DNA of 45,013 nt. Origin: Salinivirgaceae bacterium. GTDB taxonomy: Bacteria; Bacteroidota; Bacteroidia; Bacteroidales; SZUA-534. The notes beneath the pieces are model-generated. The model saw only the letters and a program-made list of their open reading frames with translations. It made no database searches and had not been told where the DNA came from. The position numbers and the translations under genes are program-made. The stretch lies in assembly GCA_016342715.1 (NCBI GenBank), contig JAEINW010000018.1, forward strand, positions 1 to 45,013, read 5' to 3'. This document shows positions 28,331 through 45,013 of the stretch, piece after piece (positions within the stretch are counted from its first letter, which is position 1; every line of letters begins with the position of its first letter).

Positions 28331-31300
28331 TTACCTTATTAAATAAATCTTGCCAAAACCATTTTTAAAATACTGATTTGTATTTGTATCTCTGTTTTTA
28401 ATATTCTGGCCATTTATTTTTGAAAATACCCGGTAAAAATAAACCCCATTTGCTAAAGCATCACCAAACATATCAGTTCCATCCCATGCATAATCAGTAA
28501 TATTTTTACCAATAGTTAAGTTTCCTAAATCGTTTAAATAAATAACTTTTACCAATTTTCCGCTAACTGTTAAAATGTCAATTCGCATTTCATCGGGTAA
28601 TTCGTAACCGGTTAACTCAAAAACAAAACGTGTTGAAGTACTAAACGGATTTGGGTAATTAAATACATTTGTTATAGTACTTTCATTTATTACTTTAAAC
28701 GAAATGGTGTAATCAAACGATCCCGATTCGTTTCCCGATTGATCTTTGCCACGAACTCTAAGCTCATAAACACCATCTTCAACAAATTCATGATTGTATA
28801 TTAATTGGGCTTTATTGTTTGGCAATTGAGCTTCGATAAAAGTTACTTCAGGATTATTTGTTATTAATATTTTTTCTTCAATACCTGTGTTTCTGGTTTT
28901 TATATAGAATGAAAGTAAAGAAGTGTCATTCAAAGGAATGTAAATGTTTTCATCGCTAAGTTGAATAACAATTTCAGGTTTAGCTGAAACTAAATCGTCG
29001 TTCATAATATGAACTCCGTCAAAAGTTACATCGAGAATTGGATTTGATTGATCTTTTTCAACGAAAAATGGTTTTTGAGCAATGTTGTTAAAATGATGCA
29101 TTTCTGGTTGATCAAAACTTTTACTGTTCGGATTTTCAGGATTTATCTCGACCCAAATACTATTATTTCCCTGATAACCCAATGTGGTAAAATTAATCGT
29201 GTCAAAAATAACGTCTCCTGCATTCAAGGGTTTTAGTCTTTTATATTCAAGAGTATGCTCAATGTTTTTTGAGTCCTGAAACCAATAATGAACTAGTAAG
29301 CTATCTATTTTCGAAGCTCCAATATTTTCAAAAGGAATGGTTAATGTTCCTTTGTCTCCTTCCTGCAAGGTGTCATTATAAAAGCTCCAACCTCTCTGAG
29401 GATTAATAGCAACATCAGATACAGGACTAAAAGTTACCTCCCAAAAATCTAATTGTCCTGGGGTTTTAAATTCTTCATCTTTTGTATAGAATTCCAATTT
29501 TAAATAAGGATATTCATTTACATCAATATCAGAAATATCGTAAGTTGAATTATTTAATGAATCGAGTAAAACGAATTCATTGGCATTTTTATCTATCCCA
29601 ATTAGATTAACAAAATTAACTTCGTTAATATTATTCTCTACGCTTGAGACGCTGCACGAGAGATTTTCCCAATAAGCTGCAGGCCCAATAAGGGGACTTT
29701 TTATGGTGCCATATATAAAATTGCTTTTTATATCAATTTCTCCAGAAATGGTTTCATCTGAATTTCCACTCCACTCCTGTGTTTTGTCTAGATTACCCTT
29801 TTGGAAAAACAAGACATATGGTTGTCTATTGAAAAGATATCTTGGAAGATCAGCTCCCCAGTCTTGGAATGCTTCAAAATGTCTTTCTTTCCATTGAGAA
29901 TATTTGCCATCAATAATCGTGTACATTAGAACATAGTAACCCTCTGGTATATCATCAATTAAATAAAGAATTTTATCTAATGCTACTTCAACGTTATCTA
30001 AATGATAAATTAAGTAATAGGCATACCTGCCTATACAATTAGGGTAGTTACTTTGACCATAATCTAAGTAATCACTTTTCCAGGGATCCATAGAACTTGA
30101 ATCAATAATTACCACATGAATGGCGGCCTTTTCTTGACAGTATGCATAATCACCAAAATTGCCAATTGTATACCCAATATTTGCCCCATCATAATTTGGA
30201 CTATCTCTACCAATATTTTTAAATCGAAGCGTTAAAGGAACTTCACTAAAAATAAAACTATCATCAGTTAAATCTGCTTCAATAAACCGCCGTTCATTTT
30301 CAATAATTTGCCCAAAATTATTTTGTTTCCAGCCGCTTTTCCCATTTTCAAAAACAAATGAGCTTGATGACCATTTCAATTCTTCATCATTAAGTTCTTT
30401 TTTTGCAGTTCTCCAAAAATAGCAAATATCTTTTTCGAAAAGTTGGTTGGTATTCCATTCAATAATTCCCCCATCGTGACTTATTTCTTCTGTAATAAGT
30501 TCTGGACTATTAAAATGATAACTGGTATCTAATTGAAATATACTCAGCTGATTTTTTGCAAACGGATCACCTGTAGCTGCTTTGAGTGTAATATTATTAT
30601 CAGGAATTATTGAATATTTGTATGGAATTAAAGGGAATAAATCGGTACTTGAAATAAAATAATTCGTTGTTGATGTATTATTGTTTTCGTTTAATTCGTT
30701 AATTTGATAGTTTCTATCTAAAGTAACCAGAAACTGATTGACTCCCTGCCCGCGTTTTCTGTCTATGGGTAATTTAAATTGAATGGTATCTTTAAATAAA
30801 ATACCATTAACCGGTTGCGCATATATTTCTTCAGACCCATCTTGAAAAACACGAATTAACTCAACCGAAAAATTTTCTGAGATTGATCGACTAATATTTG
30901 TTACAATAATATTTACACTAAAGGAGTCAATTTCAGTTGTAAGGATTGAAGGAGTAAAAGAGATATATTTCTTTTCCATTACCAAATCAGGCAATTCAAA
31001 ACTGTTAAGTACAATTTTTGGATCGCCATGCAAAGTAAACAGCTGAATGGTGCTTTTTAAGGTTCTTCCAGGGCTATATTGTAATTGAATATTTTTTCGA
31101 GTTGTGTTAATAATATCTCCTAAGGATTCTCCATATTTTAAAACGCTTAAATTTTTATAAAATTCATTTGTGAATCCGTATAAATAAGATGCCGTTCCCT
31201 GACCTACCATAGCAAAGTATGCAATTACTCCTTTGTTGGGAATTAAAGCCCACAACTCACTTGTGCTGTATGCGTTATGGGTAAATATATTTCCCGAATA

Positions 31301-33220
31301 ACATGAATTGGCTATCATTAATGGATATTTCCCTGTATTGTTATATGCCGATGGCTCGTCAATGTTTTGATCAAATCCGGTAGTTGAACCATGACCGAAA
31401 AAGGTCATTAAACTAATTCCACCATTAATTAAGTTTTCAATACTATCGGATTTAGAGGTAGCAATGGGATCGGATGAGGTTTTTAAAAAGGTAGATACAT
31501 ATCCTCCAAATAGTGTATCGGTAAAAGAATTTTCAAAAGACTTCAAATAGACTTTAAATGCGCTTTGCTCAGCTTCGCTTTTTCCTCCTCCAAAATGAAT
31601 GGCATGTTTCATCCATTCTTGGGGTTCGTTGCTTTCAAATTCAATTACTTTATTAAAATAATTACTAACATCACTAAGTGATTGGGCAGCAATTCTTCCT
31701 GTTGGAATGGCATTTTCATAGGCTGTGTTTCCAATTTTATTGCTTAATAGAATATCACTTGCCGGATATCCCATGGGTGGAATTAATGATGCTTGATATA
31801 TTGATGGATTATTTCGACAAACTTCAGCAGAAATCCCTTTTCCTATGATGAATAAATATTTTGGTTGAGTTTCCCAAGTATTATAAATATAGTTTAAGAA
31901 ATTACGAATAGCCATGGGGTGTTTGTTAATTCCATAGCCAAATTGGTTATAAAGCTTTTCAACATTCACTAAATATGCGTTTCGGTAAGCAGCATAATTT
32001 TGTGCTTCCTCCCACAGTTTTGGATGAGAAATAATAATATACTCGTTGTTTACAGCAGAATAATCGACTAGAGATACATTTGAAATTTGAGAAGTGTTAA
32101 AAATATAATTTTCATCAATCAATAGCATTTTTAGCGGCTGACTTGAAGAGGGGACTAAAGCTTTTAGTTTGGTACCATCTGCTACCAATTTAATTTTTGA
32201 ACCACGAGTTAAATCATATAAATAAGGTTCTCCATCATAAACAAAATCAACCAATTCAACATAGGTTTTCACTGCTGGAGAAGCAGGTAATCCAAATTCA
32301 AAAAATTGGCTTTTGCTAATATTAAATGTTCGGGGATAAGTAATTTCAATATACGAAACTAAAGAGTAGTCGGTTTCCGAAGAATTTTCATCAATAATGC
32401 TTGAAAATGTAATAGCGGTTGTTTCGTTTAAAGAATTTACCAAAACACTTTCGCGGTGGTTAATAGTAGTATAGCTCTGGAAATTGGTGTCAAACACCAT
32501 TTGAGGAGCTGTTGTGATAATATGGTGATAGCCACTTGAAAAGGTTATATATGAAAAATCATAAGTTGTTTTAATTCCATTATTTACAAAACTTGGTGTT
32601 GTTATTAATTTTGTTATTGACTTCCCAAGCGACAATGTTGATGTTTTTGCATCATCAACCCAACCTTCCCCTTTTATATACTCACTGTCCTCATAGCTAG
32701 CTTTGTAGGTTGAGGTGTAATCGACCCTACTGGTTGCCATACAATATGAGGCTGGTGAGTAAGCGCTAAAATTTACGTCATTTTCATTAGAGAAACGTAA
32801 ATTATTAAAGCTACTGTTCCAGGTAAAAAAAACCGAGGCGGTATCGTTTATAAAGCTGTAGTTTGGGTTAGTTTGCGATTCGGGGTTTTCGTGCATTTCA
32901 ATATCAAACCAACCGTCATTTTTTTCTGCATAAAATTCTATGAAAGTTATCAATCCTTGACTTTCGCCTTCAATGTAGCAAGGTATTTCTTCTCCCTTAT
33001 AGAATAATTGTACATTCTGAGGATTAAAATTTCCTAACATAATTCCAGAATTTTGCAATTCCTCTCCAGTAACTCTATATATTCCAGAATGGGGAATGCT
33101 AAAACGGTAATAGCTTTGATTTAAATTAATCCACTCGTTTCCATAGCTTTGAGCCTGTGTGTAATTTTGCACGGAAATGAGTGCAAAAACTACTGCTATA
33201 ATATATTTTACAACTTTCAT
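28331..33220 (-). CDS. porU: Type IX secretion system sortase PorU, long form
   Basis: Cell-surface gingipain-type (C25) cysteine peptidase that removes the C-terminal signal of T9SS cargo and attaches it to A-LPS. The signal peptide ends near TQAQS. The catalytic dyad is His610 (TFFGHGST) and Cys640 (ANSCYSGN), 30 residues apart. After the peptidase come a CARDB/Ig-like region (about 750-860) and further beta-rich domains. A C-terminal domain starts at NYPNPFSTSTRFVFEL and ends NGVYFYRVF...KIYLIR, resembling T9SS signals as in PorU. At 1629 aa it is longer than P. gingivalis PorU and fits the long form of Bacteroidales relatives. porV is 10 nt upstream. Confidence 0.92.
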   Translation of the reverse strand: MKVVKYIIAVVFALISVQNYTQAQSYGNEWINLNQSYYRFSIPHSGIYRVTGEELQNSGIMLGNFNPQNVQLFYKGEEIPCYIEGESQGLITFIEFYAEKNDGWFDIEMHENPESQTNPNYSFINDTASVFFTWNSSFNNLRFSNENDVNFSAYSPASYCMATSRVDYTSTYKASYEDSEYIKGEGWVDDAKTSTLSLGKSITKLITTPSFVNNGIKTTYDFSYITFSSGYHHIITTAPQMVFDTNFQSYTTINHRESVLVNSLNETTAITFSSIIDENSSETDYSLVSYIEITYPRTFNISKSQFFEFGLPASPAVKTYVELVDFVYDGEPYLYDLTRGSKIKLVADGTKLKALVPSSSQPLKMLLIDENYIFNTSQISNVSLVDYSAVNNEYIIISHPKLWEEAQNYAAYRNAYLVNVEKLYNQFGYGINKHPMAIRNFLNYIYNTWETQPKYLFIIGKGISAEVCRNNPSIYQASLIPPMGYPASDILLSNKIGNTAYENAIPTGRIAAQSLSDVSNYFNKVIEFESNEPQEWMKHAIHFGGGKSEAEQSAFKVYLKSFENSFTDTLFGGYVSTFLKTSSDPIATSKSDSIENLINGGISLMTFFGHGSTTGFDQNIDEPSAYNNTGKYPLMIANSCYSGNIFTHNAYSTSELWALIPNKGVIAYFAMVGQGTASYLYGFTNEFYKNLSVLKYGESLGDIINTTRKNIQLQYSPGRTLKSTIQLFTLHGDPKIVLNSFELPDLVMEKKYISFTPSILTTEIDSFSVNIIVTNISRSISENFSVELIRVFQDGSEEIYAQPVNGILFKDTIQFKLPIDRKRGQGVNQFLVTLDRNYQINELNENNNTSTTNYFISSTDLFPLIPYKYSIIPDNNITLKAATGDPFAKNQLSIFQLDTSYHFNSPELITEEISHDGGIIEWNTNQLFEKDICYFWRTAKKELNDEELKWSSSSFVFENGKSGWKQNNFGQIIENERRFIEADLTDDSFIFSEVPLTLRFKNIGRDSPNYDGANIGYTIGNFGDYAYCQEKAAIHVVIIDSSSMDPWKSDYLDYGQSNYPNCIGRYAYYLIYHLDNVEVALDKILYLIDDIPEGYYVLMYTIIDGKYSQWKERHFEAFQDWGADLPRYLFNRQPYVLFFQKGNLDKTQEWSGNSDETISGEIDIKSNFIYGTIKSPLIGPAAYWENLSCSVSSVENNINEVNFVNLIGIDKNANEFVLLDSLNNSTYDISDIDVNEYPYLKLEFYTKDEEFKTPGQLDFWEVTFSPVSDVAINPQRGWSFYNDTLQEGDKGTLTIPFENIGASKIDSLLVHYWFQDSKNIEHTLEYKRLKPLNAGDVIFDTINFTTLGYQGNNSIWVEINPENPNSKSFDQPEMHHFNNIAQKPFFVEKDQSNPILDVTFDGVHIMNDDLVSAKPEIVIQLSDENIYIPLNDTSLLSFYIKTRNTGIEEKILITNNPEVTFIEAQLPNNKAQLIYNHEFVEDGVYELRVRGKDQSGNESGSFDYTISFKVINESTITNVFNYPNPFSTSTRFVFELTGYELPDEMRIDILTVSGKLVKVIYLNDLGNLTIGKNITDYAWDGTDMFGDALANGVYFYRVFSKINGQNIKNRDTNTNQYFKNGFGKIYLIR

Positions 33221-33230
33221 TTGTAGTAAA

Positions 33231-34310
33231 TTAATTCTTCTTTTCTATTCCAAGGGTTAAGGTAAAAATATGTGAATAACCTGCTGCAGAAACATTACCT
33301 AGATCAGTTAAAGCATAGTCAATAGCAAATCTTTTATATTTAAAACCCAATCCCATATTAGGCATAAGGGTTGTTGATTCATTTCCTAAATTGTCATATT
33401 CTTTTTGAATGTTTCCAACACCAAAACGTAAAAACACAATTCTATTGTAATTACTTTCAAAACCAATGTGCGGATCAATACTAATGATATTCGATTTAAT
33501 CAGCACATTTCTTTTTCCATCAGTAGTTGCATCAAGATTTAATTCCCCCAAAATGCCAATTTTATCGGTGATGTTGTAAGAATAGGCTACCCCTAAAATA
33601 AATTTAGGAAGGGTTATTTCTGTTGAATTTTCAGGAACTACATTACCCGTTAATTCAAAAACATCTTTCAACTCATCAGTATTAAATTTCCAGGAATTAA
33701 ATGTGGTAGTTATGTCACGAGCCATAAATCCAAAGGTAAAATTGTCCAGTTCATATAAACCTGAAATATCGATACCAAATCCCCAGGCTGAAGCAAAATC
33801 GCCACCCACTCGTCTAATGATTTTAGCACTACCACCCACACTTAATCCATCAATTTGAAGTTTTTTAGCGTACGAAAAATTTACTGCATAATCAGCCACA
33901 GAAAAGGAGGTAATTTTATCAAAATTAATATTTCCGTTGGCATCAATTAATTCGAGCGTATTAGGAATGTTATCCACAGCAAATCGAATAAATGTTATTG
34001 CAAAAGCGCCATCGTTTTCTAATTTAAATGCAATTCCACCATAGTCGTATTTTGATAGACCTGCAAAATATTCAGAGTGCATTAGACCTAAATTCATTGA
34101 ACTTTCAAGTTTAGTAAGTGCTGCAGGATTCCAATACGTTGAAGTTAAATCGGAAGTTGAAGCAACGGTTGAGTTAGCCATACCAAAAGCTCTTGCCCCG
34201 ACACCTATTGATAAAAATTCGTTGGAATATTTGGGAGCATTTTGCCCAAATCCTAGCTGAGATAAAAGTACAAAATATAGAAATATGAATAAAACTTCGG
34301 GATTCTTCAT
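33231..34310 (-). CDS. porV: Type IX secretion system outer membrane protein PorV
   Basis: A 14-stranded FadL-like barrel that shuttles cargo from the SprA translocon to PorU. It has a signal peptide (residues 1-22, LSQLGFGQ). It contains the PorV/PorQ hallmark FLSIGVGARAFGMANSTVASTSDLTSTYWNPAAL, seen here from about residue 30 as GARAFGMA and TYWNPAAL. It ends in a typical strand HIFTLTLGIE. At 359 aa it is close to family length. It is first in the porV-porU pair, so the two surface components are co-expressed. No other T9SS genes are in the window. Confidence 0.92.
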   Translation of the reverse strand: MKNPEVLFIFLYFVLLSQLGFGQNAPKYSNEFLSIGVGARAFGMANSTVASTSDLTSTYWNPAALTKLESSMNLGLMHSEYFAGLSKYDYGGIAFKLENDGAFAITFIRFAVDNIPNTLELIDANGNINFDKITSFSVADYAVNFSYAKKLQIDGLSVGGSAKIIRRVGGDFASAWGFGIDISGLYELDNFTFGFMARDITTTFNSWKFNTDELKDVFELTGNVVPENSTEITLPKFILGVAYSYNITDKIGILGELNLDATTDGKRNVLIKSNIISIDPHIGFESNYNRIVFLRFGVGNIQKEYDNLGNESTTLMPNMGLGFKYKRFAIDYALTDLGNVSAAGYSHIFTLTLGIEKKN

Positions 34311-35295: not shown

Positions 35296-35532
35296 ATGAA
35301 AGAACTTGAAAAACTCTCACTTATTGAGCTAAAAAGCTACAAAGAACTCATTGAAAATAGAATGAACCAGTTACGCCGTCACCAAATTGATGGTGAGTAT
35401 TATCCACCCTATACCGAAAAAGAAATTAAACAGGTAAAGGAAAAAGAGGAAAAGGCAGCAAAAGCATTGTTGACAGTTAATAAGCTGATTCGTTTAAAAC
35501 TAGATGAATTTATTGATGGATTAAAGATTTAA
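35296..35532 (+). CDS. Small coiled-coil protein, function unknown
   Basis: A 78-residue, highly charged, mostly helical protein (MKELEKLSLIELKSYKE then many Lys/Glu), with one helix-breaking segment (GEYYPPYTEKE) dividing two helices, so it could form a helical hairpin. No signal peptide and no known family. A -7-like TATATTTG lies about 165 nt upstream. It is in the repeat-rich accessory region, followed by a strong hairpin. Confidence 0.55.
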   Translation: MKELEKLSLIELKSYKELIENRMNQLRRHQIDGEYYPPYTEKEIKQVKEKEEKAAKALLTVNKLIRLKLDEFIDGLKI

Positions 35533-35910: not shown

Positions 35911-35987
35911 GACTCCTTCTCTGGCTGTCGCCAGTTACTCACTTTGCTCGTGAGATCGCTTCGCTTAGTTCTCCCGGGAGAGAACTT
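35911..35987 (+). repeat. DUF559-associated repeat R2 (expanded copy)
   Basis: Ends in GTTCTCCCGGGAGAGAACTT. The middle holds extra hairpins: CTGGC-TGTC-GCCAG (35921-35934) and CTCAC...GTGAG (35938-35954). Its last 39 nt (35949-35987) match R6 (36698-36736) at 30 of 39 positions. Same orientation as R4 and R8. Confidence 0.6.
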
Positions 35988-36047
35988 GTTATTTTGAATT
36001 TGCAATGCTAAACCATTAAAATATTACACAAAAACTTAAATTGGAAT

Positions 36048-36088
36048 AAGTGCTCCCCCAGGGGAGCTGTCCGAAGGACCGAGGGGGA
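36048..36088 (-). repeat. DUF559-associated repeat R3
   Basis: AAGTGCTCCCCCAGGGGAGC followed by TGTCCGAAGGAC and CGAGGGGGA. Hairpin I is GCTCCCC-CA-GGGGAGC. Hairpin II is GTCC-GAA-GGAC. It lies 48 nt before the DUF559 start, in opposite orientation to R4, which follows the gene. Confidence 0.8.
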
Positions 36089-36136
36089 TATCAATATTTT
36101 TTTGGAAGCGCCCCAATAAACACGTAATTTTTATTC

Positions 36137-36532
36137 ATGGAAAAAGCATCAGAATCAAATAACTGGTATTTCAACGCAAATTTAACAGAGCGAGCAAAGT
36201 ATCTGCGCAAGCATGCAACAAAAGCCGAAGTTTATTTGTGGAAATTTGCTTTGAAAAGTAATATGATGGGAGTTAAATTTTTGCGACAACGGCCTGTATT
36301 AAATTACATAGCCGATTTTATGTGTAAAGAATTAATGCTGATAATTGAGTGTGATGGCATTACTCATCAATTAGAAGGTGCTGAACAAAAAGATTTAAAA
36401 CGACAAAAAGTTTTGGGAGATATTGGGTTTACTTTCTTGCGTTTTGAAGATGATATGGTGCTTAATAATTCAACAACTACCTTAAGCATTATAGAGCAAG
36501 AAGTAGAACGGATTAAAAATGAAAATAAATAA
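36137..36532 (+). CDS. DUF559-family (Vsr/PD-(D/E)xK-like) endonuclease
   Basis: A 131-aa protein with the DUF559 signature: an N-terminal RAKYLRKHATKAEVYLW helix pair, GVKFLRQRPVLNYIADF, then ELMLIIECDGITHQ, and a C-terminal FLRFEDDMVLNN. Candidate active-site residues are Asp60, Glu71, Asp73 and His77, all present, so the nuclease core looks intact. The family is related to very-short-patch-repair nucleases; its cellular role is not established. Double-hairpin repeats frame the gene: R3 ends 48 nt upstream and R4 starts at the base after the stop codon, in inverted orientation. This gene-plus-repeats layout suggests a mobile or repeat-maintaining unit. Confidence 0.85.
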   Translation: MEKASESNNWYFNANLTERAKYLRKHATKAEVYLWKFALKSNMMGVKFLRQRPVLNYIADFMCKELMLIIECDGITHQLEGAEQKDLKRQKVLGDIGFTFLRFEDDMVLNNSTTTLSIIEQEVERIKNENK

Positions 36533-36573
36533 TTCCCTCTCTCCCTTTCGGGATCTCTCCCAGGAGAGAACTT
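36533..36573 (+). repeat. DUF559-associated repeat R4
   Basis: Begins right after the DUF559 stop (TTCCCTCTCTCCCTTTCGGG) and ends CAGGAGAGAACTT. Read on the minus strand it has hairpin I TCTCTCC-TG-GGAGAGA and hairpin II CCC-GAAA-GGG. The layout is the same as R3 with different but paired bases. It may also serve as the gene's terminator. Confidence 0.75.
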
Positions 36574-36634
36574 TACTTGGTTGCTATTATTGAAAAACTG
36601 GAAACTTTATAGTTTCAAATATTTAATTCTGGAT

Positions 36635-36676
36635 AAGTGCTCCCCTGGTGGGAGCTGTCCGAAGGACTGAGGGGGA
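36635..36676 (-). repeat. DUF559-associated repeat R5
   Basis: Hairpin I GCTCCC-CTGGT-GGGAGC, hairpin II GTCC-GAA-GGAC, tail TGAGGGGGA. It is 61 nt after R4 and inverted relative to it. The preceding GGATAAGTGC resembles the GGAATAAGTGC before R3. Confidence 0.8.
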
Positions 36677-36697
36677 ATAATATTCAAATATATTTTT

Positions 36698-36736
36698 CGT
36701 GAGAACGTTTTGCTAAGCTTCCCTAGGAGAGAACTT
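36698..36736 (+). repeat. DUF559-associated repeat R6 (partial)
   Basis: Matches the right half of R2 at 30 of 39 positions and ends in the shared CCTAGGAGAGAACTT. Same orientation as R2 and R4. Confidence 0.6.
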
Positions 36737-36795
36737 TACTTGTTTGACCACGCAATAAATTGATTATCGATATACTCAAAATTTCAATCAAGGGC

Positions 36796-36836
36796 AGTGT
36801 TCCCCTTGTGGGAGCTATCCGAAGGACTGAGGGAGC
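36796..36836 (-). repeat. DUF559-associated repeat R7
   Basis: AGTGTTCCCCTTGTGGGAGC followed by TATCCGAAGGACTGAGGGAG. It is a slightly decayed form of R3/R5, with one G-U pair in hairpin I. It lies 59 nt after R6 and inverted to it. Confidence 0.7.
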
Positions 36837-44961: not shown

Positions 44962-44971
44962 TTACTCATTA

Positions 44972-45013
44972 TTCCCTCTCAGTCCTTCGGACAGCTCTCC
45001 CAAGAGAGCACTT
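44972..45013 (+). repeat. DUF559-associated repeat R8
   Basis: TTCCCTCTCAGTCCTTCGGA then CAGCTCTCCCAAGAGAGCACTT. Read on the minus strand it is the R3/R5 type: hairpin I GCTCTC-TTGG-GAGAGC (paired change from GCTCCC/GGGAGC), hairpin II GTCC-GAA-GGAC. The window ends here, so the inverted partner expected about 60 nt further right cannot be seen. Confidence 0.75.

Follow-up and report, generated by a model that had tools for sequence, protein, structure and literature searches.

The window analyzed here comprises positions 1 to 45,013 of contig JAEINW010000018.1 from the 5.54-Mb draft genome of a Salinivirgaceae bacterium (GCA_016342715.1). It contains a DUF559 gene surrounded by three direct copies (A, B, and C) of one unit of ~150 bp. 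Each unit consists of a left end, an AT-rich middle of 59 to 62 nt, and a right end, which corresponds to the left end in inverted orientation. The features are as follows.

35913-36089: unit A, whole
35913-35987, minus strand: structured left end of unit A, longer and more eroded than the others, with 75 to 95% identity to other genomic copies
35988-36048, no strand: AT-rich middle of unit A, 61 nt
36049-36089, plus strand: right end of unit A, with pyrimidine (Y) arm GCTCCCC, purine (R) arm GGGGAGC, loop hairpin TGTCCGAAGGACC, and third arm GAGGGGG, the mirror of the R arm
36137-36532, plus strand: DUF559 gene, 131 amino acids, predicted Vsr-like/EDxHD nuclease fold (Pfam, AlphaFold, Foldseek)
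36534-36677: unit B, whole
36534-36573, minus strand: left end of unit B; in reverse complement, arms TTCTCTCC/GGGAGAGA, loop hairpin TCCCGAAAGGGA, third arm GAGAGGGA
36574-36635, no strand: AT-rich middle of unit B, 62 nt
36636-36677, plus strand: right end of unit B, arms GCTCCCC/GGGAGC, loop hairpin TGTCCGAAGGACT, third arm GAGGGGG
about 36704-36836: unit C, whole
36704-36736, minus strand: left end of unit C, partly degenerate
36737-36795, no strand: AT-rich middle of unit C, 59 nt
36796-36836, plus strand: right end of unit C, arms GTTCCCC/GGGAGC, loop hairpin TATCCGAAGGACT, third arm GAGGGAG
44968-45013, minus strand: R8, another right end of the same family, arms CTCTC/GAGAG, third arm GAGAGGG, truncated where the contig stops

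The spacers of units A, B, and C (61, 62, and 59 nt) run from GAGAACTT to AGTG. An earlier, sequence-only reading had placed six of these repeats (R2 to R7), their spacers, and the gene where we find them, with correct spacer lengths, and had read the arms of R8 as they are. It took the repeats as single copies alternating in orientation and forming three inverted pairs; the positions hold, but three direct units of ~150 bp describe them better. The repeats do lie around the DUF559 gene, as it said, but the gene sits between complete units and not within one. Likewise, the second of its "two adjacent hairpins" exists, but it is a small hairpin in the loop that precedes a third arm (GAGGGGG or GAGAGGG), which mirrors the purine arm of the main hairpin and had been overlooked.

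Upstream of the repeats lie a small open reading frame of 78 amino acids without a Pfam match (35296-35532) and, at 28331-34310, what look by sequence impression like a large gingipain-like/type IX secretion protein and a PorV-like protein. An Rfam search of the repeat stretch found nothing above threshold. PADLOC gave only a marginal hit (0.019), which does not amount to a defense system.

Copies of the repeats in the genome and its relatives

The repeat stretch matches 46 places in its own genome, with E values down to 6e-35 outside itself, and given these matches the window repeats are far beyond chance. Within a subfamily, whole units elsewhere in the genome keep both the middle and the ends, with outer termini TTCCCTCTC and GAGAGGGAA. 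The units thus have a feature of MITEs, terminal inverted repeats with a conserved short middle of ~60 nt at dispersed places. At the sites compared, which included no clean same-species empty site, no target-site duplication was evident. Of 60 related genomes, only 2, the own genome and G001, have ends specific to the window family; both have a matching DUF559, that of G001 being 61% identical to the one in the window.

The DUF559 nuclease and its relatives

The resident gene is a DUF559 gene, as the sequence-only reading had stated: the product matches PF04480 at 2.7e-29 (101.6 bits, cutoff 20.6). The acidic core is conserved, with T, E, W, Q, D-F, E-x-D-G-x-x-H, D, and R. An AlphaFold model of the window protein (pLDDT 89.5), searched with Foldseek, matches the structure 3hrl at 8.8e-07 and I-Bth0305I, a homing endonuclease, at 8.9e-04; its match to Vsr is weaker (0.048). 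I-Bth0305I was also found with a sequence profile (1.2e-05). Judged by profile and predicted fold, the catalytic domain of DUF559 is homologous to that of the EDxHD homing endonucleases. One DUF559 gene has been assigned to the EDxHD homing family (PMC9403480), and a DUF559 protein of Caulobacter, VsrA, has been studied as a Vsr-like protein and proposed to be a mismatch repair nuclease (PMC12907096); the passages of these two papers on which we draw do not mention repeats. In the open-access full texts of published papers, 14 of which name DUF559, we found no earlier report that links it to repeats.

The distribution of DUF559 is patchy (21 of 60 relatives). The own genome has seven matches, and by eye most of these genes are bordered by GC-rich palindromes of other sequences: CCCCT..AGGGG at L010 and L011, CCTCC..GGAGG at L014, and palindromes of the CCTTCTCC/CCTCCTCC type where DUF559 lies in frame within an HsdR-like frame of 1,247 amino acids (L009 and L016). 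Under a strict hairpin criterion, palindromes on one or both sides are confirmed for four of the seven. Because the palindromes differ in sequence among the genes of one genome, the rule concerns a type of repeat and not one repeat. At L010 and L013 (contig C19 of genome G000), near-identical DUF559 genes lie between tandem FtsX-like permease genes; the second is frame damaged.

DUF559 genes and palindromes across phyla

A protein-based scan with one genome per species yielded 80 DUF559 loci, 79 of them usable, from Bacteroidota, Proteobacteria, Chloroflexota, Cyanobacteria, Planctomycetota, Omnitrophota, Elusimicrobia, a Methanophagales archaeon, and others. We scored as a palindrome any pyrimidine/purine hairpin with a stem of at least 6 and at least 4 GC pairs within about 300 bp of a gene. 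Palindromes were present on any side of DUF559 at 65 of 79 loci, versus 48 of 688 other genes of the same loci (Fisher test, 4e-49), and on both sides at 40 of 79, versus none of the 688 control genes (5e-45); the 79 loci are not fully independent, although both their phyla and their ends differ. Palindrome density was ~2 per kb within 500 bp of DUF559 and 0 to 0.27 per kb beyond. In a separate Bacteroidota set, made up of the own genome and relatives of the same order, the corresponding counts were 21 of 28 versus 4 of 175 (any side) and 13 of 28 versus 0 of 175 (both sides). The connection between DUF559 and this class of repeats, first proposed for the window, is therefore real and general, and its support reaches well beyond the genome in which it was noticed.

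A mirror third arm and the triplex rule

The ends share a layout, exemplified by CCCCTTCTCCT-tc-AGGAGAAGGGG-tcg-GGGGTTGAGGT: a hairpin with a pyrimidine 5' arm and a purine 3' arm is followed to the outside, usually after 3 nt, by another arm of purines. This third arm mirrors the purine arm of the hairpin, with A either retained or changed to T. We rejected the alternative that it is a direct repeat; among 87 informative hairpins, the mirror was better in 53 and worse in 3. With a fixed 3-nt loop, the mirror score was 0.828, versus 0.668 when third arms were swapped among hairpins of equal length (standard deviation, 0.015; best of 1,000 shuffles, 0.710). Opposite G, the third arm has G in 524 of 607 cases; opposite A, it has A in 86 and T in 79 of 220.

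An antiparallel purine-motif triplex (G·G-C, A·A-T, and T·A-T) requires a mirror match with A or T opposite A, and T opposite A is unsuited to a pyrimidine-motif triplex of the other strand. The observed rule, a mirror match with A or T opposite A, hence fits the antiparallel purine motif, and the DUF559-linked ends are predicted to be capable of forming an intrastrand DNA triplex of the purine-motif type. The covariation of the mirror arm is evolutionary evidence for selection on the triplex geometry itself.

The window family obeys the same Y-R-R mirror rule around a loop hairpin of 12 to 13 nt (TGTCCGAAGGACT and TCCCGAAAGGGA), whereas the loop at other loci is mostly about 3 nt. This variant is also seen at the G001 and G002 loci of the family, where the loop hairpins differ and the mirror arms include AGGGAAGA and AGAAGGG. 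With loops of this length, the family falls outside the 1 to 6 nt of the TM search definition (Holder et al.) and is a variant of the TM motif.

DUF559-linked ends and BoxC/PIT/TM repeats

BoxC, PIT, and TM are names for the same three-arm motif, of which E. coli K-12 has 23 copies and which is known from more than 260 genomes (PMC4666352). As an isolated strand, an E. coli TM oligonucleotide forms a stable triplex in vitro, whereas no triplex was seen in duplex DNA or by in vivo footprinting (PMC4666352). Holder et al. (2015) state that in no case did they see a transposase, an integrase, or a remnant of either in the vicinity of TM sites (PMC4666352). By their three-arm layout, the DUF559-linked ends are this known intrastrand-triplex motif.

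The E. coli member of DUF559, ycjD, lies between sapF and fabI, with a cluster of TM motifs after it. Across 60 spread E. coli records, the mean number of TM places is 16.8 in the 36 records with a best TM match of the ycjD-linked type, assigned from identity and coverage and not record by record, and 5.8 in the remaining 24; the difference is no more than consistent with the link, being confounded by phylogroup and query. A DUF559 gene of Neisseria gonorrhoeae, probably NGO0050 (structure 3HRL) to judge from map position, has the same kind of repeats downstream.

For counts per genome, we used 185 genomes from the class of the Methylomonas locus, with a strict TM pattern and with clear DUF559 defined as an E value below about 1e-15. 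The pattern occurred in 21 of 41 genomes with clear DUF559 and in 16 of the 144 others (odds ratio, 8.4; P = 2e-7), with mean copy numbers of 6.7 and 1.3, respectively; a reversed control pattern occurred in none of the 185. All 8 TM-bearing genomes among 60 Bacteroidota relatives have a DUF559 hit, weak in two cases (P = 8e-5). The more similar the nucleases are, the more similar are the ends (Mantel r = 0.18, P < 0.0005). Such a correlation is expected if each nuclease has its cognate ends, and shared descent also contributes to it.

The sequence-only reading had held that repeats equally abundant without DUF559, or DUF559 genes lacking repeats, would speak against its idea. Both situations occur in part. 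Four genomes in which DUF559 was not detected (G124, G126, G172, and G242) carry 20 to 51 TM copies, and at 14 of the 79 loci of the wider scan no palindrome was detected by the criterion used. A relaxed DUF559 search of the repeat-rich genomes without DUF559 turned up a degenerate remnant in G093 and nothing else that was convincing. The repeats in the four genomes are either relics after loss of the nuclease or the work of another agent.

Whole-element insertions, filled and empty sites

At many loci the DUF559 domain lies in frame within another protein, mostly together with its ends.

HsdR, in frame: own genome, L138, L144, L155, L159
HsdM, in frame: L084, L121, L126, L146
LeuS, in frame, at more than one site: L037, L041, L147, L151, L160
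Class I aminoacyl-tRNA synthetase read as ValS, in frame, ends eroded: L150, a Rickettsiales genome
Chorismate synthase (AroC), in frame, contig starting inside the gene: L088
MmeI-like protein (L132), Eco57I-like protein (L152), and DUF1156 protein (L123), in frame

Some LeuS proteins of the same order lack the module; where others have it, with its translated ends, they have a short loop (KVKDSDLS or similar), and these uninterrupted alleles have no TM at that place. A decayed module is seen in leuS of G048 (L185), where the repeat ends are gone and E-x-D-G-x-x-H is partly lost, with the reading frame retained.

Between genes, filled and empty hisA-hisF sites can be compared in Pedobacter. 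In the filled sites, the stop codon of hisA is followed directly by the left third arm, and the right third arm lies at codon 2 of hisF, whereas empty sites contain 68 to 333 nt of other DNA and the hisF ATG. This ATG is absent from the filled sites; HisF is therefore probably made as a fusion with DUF559. Because the filled sites also lost the old intergenic DNA, they do not prove a simple insertion. Nor was a clean insertion found at zntA-tusA, ypfG-tkt, or sapF-fabI in E. coli. At zntA-tusA, TM is present in all strains compared, and no empty site was found. The sapF-fabI region does not serve as an empty site, as strains without ycjD carry a transporter operon next to sapF. At ypfG-tkt, one strain has a BoxC/TM motif and others a REP-like repeat (L175 versus L178 to L181).

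Discussion

BoxC/PIT/TM repeats have been known since the 1990s and from hundreds of genomes, including those of E. coli K-12, Neisseria, and cyanobacteria. What spreads them? The agent had been missing, and DUF559 is the best candidate yet. Like the sequence-only reading, which missed the triplex geometry, the identity with BoxC/PIT/TM, and the in-frame insertions, we infer that the repeats are maintained or moved by the nuclease. We hypothesize, with a probability of roughly three in four, that the DUF559 gene and its surrounding repeats form one family of mobile elements with a homing-type nuclease, triplex-capable ends, and short derivatives without the nuclease. This hypothesis builds on what the data show: the association, the covarying end geometry, the genome-wide copies, the in-frame modules opposite uninterrupted alleles, and the relation to homing endonucleases.

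A complete element would consist of a gene for a homing-type nuclease of the Vsr/EDxHD fold bordered by outward-pointing ends, and the short units, two ends around ~60 nt, would be nuclease-less derivatives comparable with MITEs or REPINs. The nuclease may recognize its cognate end when the strand is single, during replication or repair, and folded, and may cut at or near this folded end. Host repair would then copy the element, or a short unit in trans, into the break. As DUF559 lacks a strand-joining domain, the copying would have to depend on the repair machinery of the host. Insertions would persist in intergenic DNA or, if in frame, in protein loops and linkers.

An alternative that we consider unlikely is that the repeats spread otherwise and that DUF559 is a homing parasite, which cuts TM sites and has its gene copied into the break, the repeats not being moved by the nuclease. 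Homing endonucleases such as its relative I-Bth0305I act in this way, and repeat-rich genomes without DUF559 exist; above all, complete repeat units flank many stand-alone genes (the window, L103, L122, L125, and L140), and chiefly for this reason homing into preexisting repeats remains the main alternative. However, the in-frame cases in hsdR and leuS and the case before hisF carry both ends plus the gene, the LeuS alleles without the module lack a TM into which it could have homed, and end sequences track the nuclease. Much less probable still is that DUF559 serves the host as a Vsr-type repair enzyme, with the repeats as its cargo or its targets (repair at triplex-prone DNA) and no selfish mobility. 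The fold, as modeled, is Vsr-like, and the Caulobacter VsrA is reported to affect SOS induction (PMC12907096), but the patchy distribution, the in-frame insertion into unrelated host genes, and the presence of several divergent DUF559 genes with different ends in one genome suit mobility better. Finally, terminators, too, are GC-rich hairpins near gene ends, but it is highly improbable that the association is incidental and that the palindromes serve as ordinary structures of gene ends, either terminators or mRNA structures of the REP type, given that none of the 688 control genes has them on both sides and that they occur inside open reading frames with a covarying mirror third arm.

The preferred reading, one family of mobile elements, relates DUF559 to several known systems. 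BoxC/PIT/TM repeats share the three-arm rule, the high copy number, and the presence in many phyla, and the E. coli copies are this motif; they have been known as orphan repeats, without the nuclease, the outward-pointing pairs of ends, and the insertions of whole elements that are described here. Their loop is ~3 nt, where the window family has a small hairpin. REP/BIME repeats with RAYT (TnpA-REP) likewise place inverted palindrome pairs around a nuclease gene and have many nuclease-less copies, and the earlier comparison with them is apt in the sense of "works like"; the resident gene encodes a DUF559 protein and no HUH Y1 (RAYT) nuclease, and the family is not a member of the REP/RAYT system. 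While RAYT is a HUH tyrosine enzyme, DUF559 is PD-(D/E)XK-like, its ends are of the triplex type, and its modules also occur in frame inside genes. Rickettsia palindromic elements are palindromic DNA in frame within coding genes, like the DUF559 modules, and are not known to have a nuclease; the ValS insertion in the Rickettsiales genome (L150) suggests a possible link. EDxHD/Vsr-like homing endonucleases such as I-Bth0305I have a related catalytic domain and insert selfishly into conserved genes. Unlike these endonucleases, DUF559 modules involve no intron or intein, are read through in frame, and have structured repeat ends and short derivatives. The Vsr mismatch endonuclease and Caulobacter VsrA have the fold in common, VsrA with a DUF559 domain; Vsr pairs with a cytosine methyltransferase, and no repeat ends are described for Vsr or VsrA in the passages of PMC12907096 to which we refer.

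In kind, the DUF559 elements are a variant of the mobile elements that combine a nuclease with structured repeats, with an unrelated nuclease and triplex-type ends. A bolder version, to which we give somewhat less than even odds, is that they represent a new class of mobile elements in bacteria and possibly archaea, with ends that are recognized in the form of a DNA triple helix. In this class, a minimal Vsr/EDxHD nuclease would cut the folded triplex end on single-stranded DNA, host repair would paste the element, even in frame into essential genes, and tens to hundreds of nuclease-less BoxC/PIT/TM copies would move in trans.

The link to DUF559, represented by ycjD in E. coli and by an N. 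gonorrhoeae member with a solved structure (3HRL), makes the origin of BoxC/PIT/TM repeats directly testable. It also explains the odd in-frame insertions in HsdR, HsdM, and aminoacyl-tRNA synthetases, and it provides DUF559, so far of unknown function, with a likely role.
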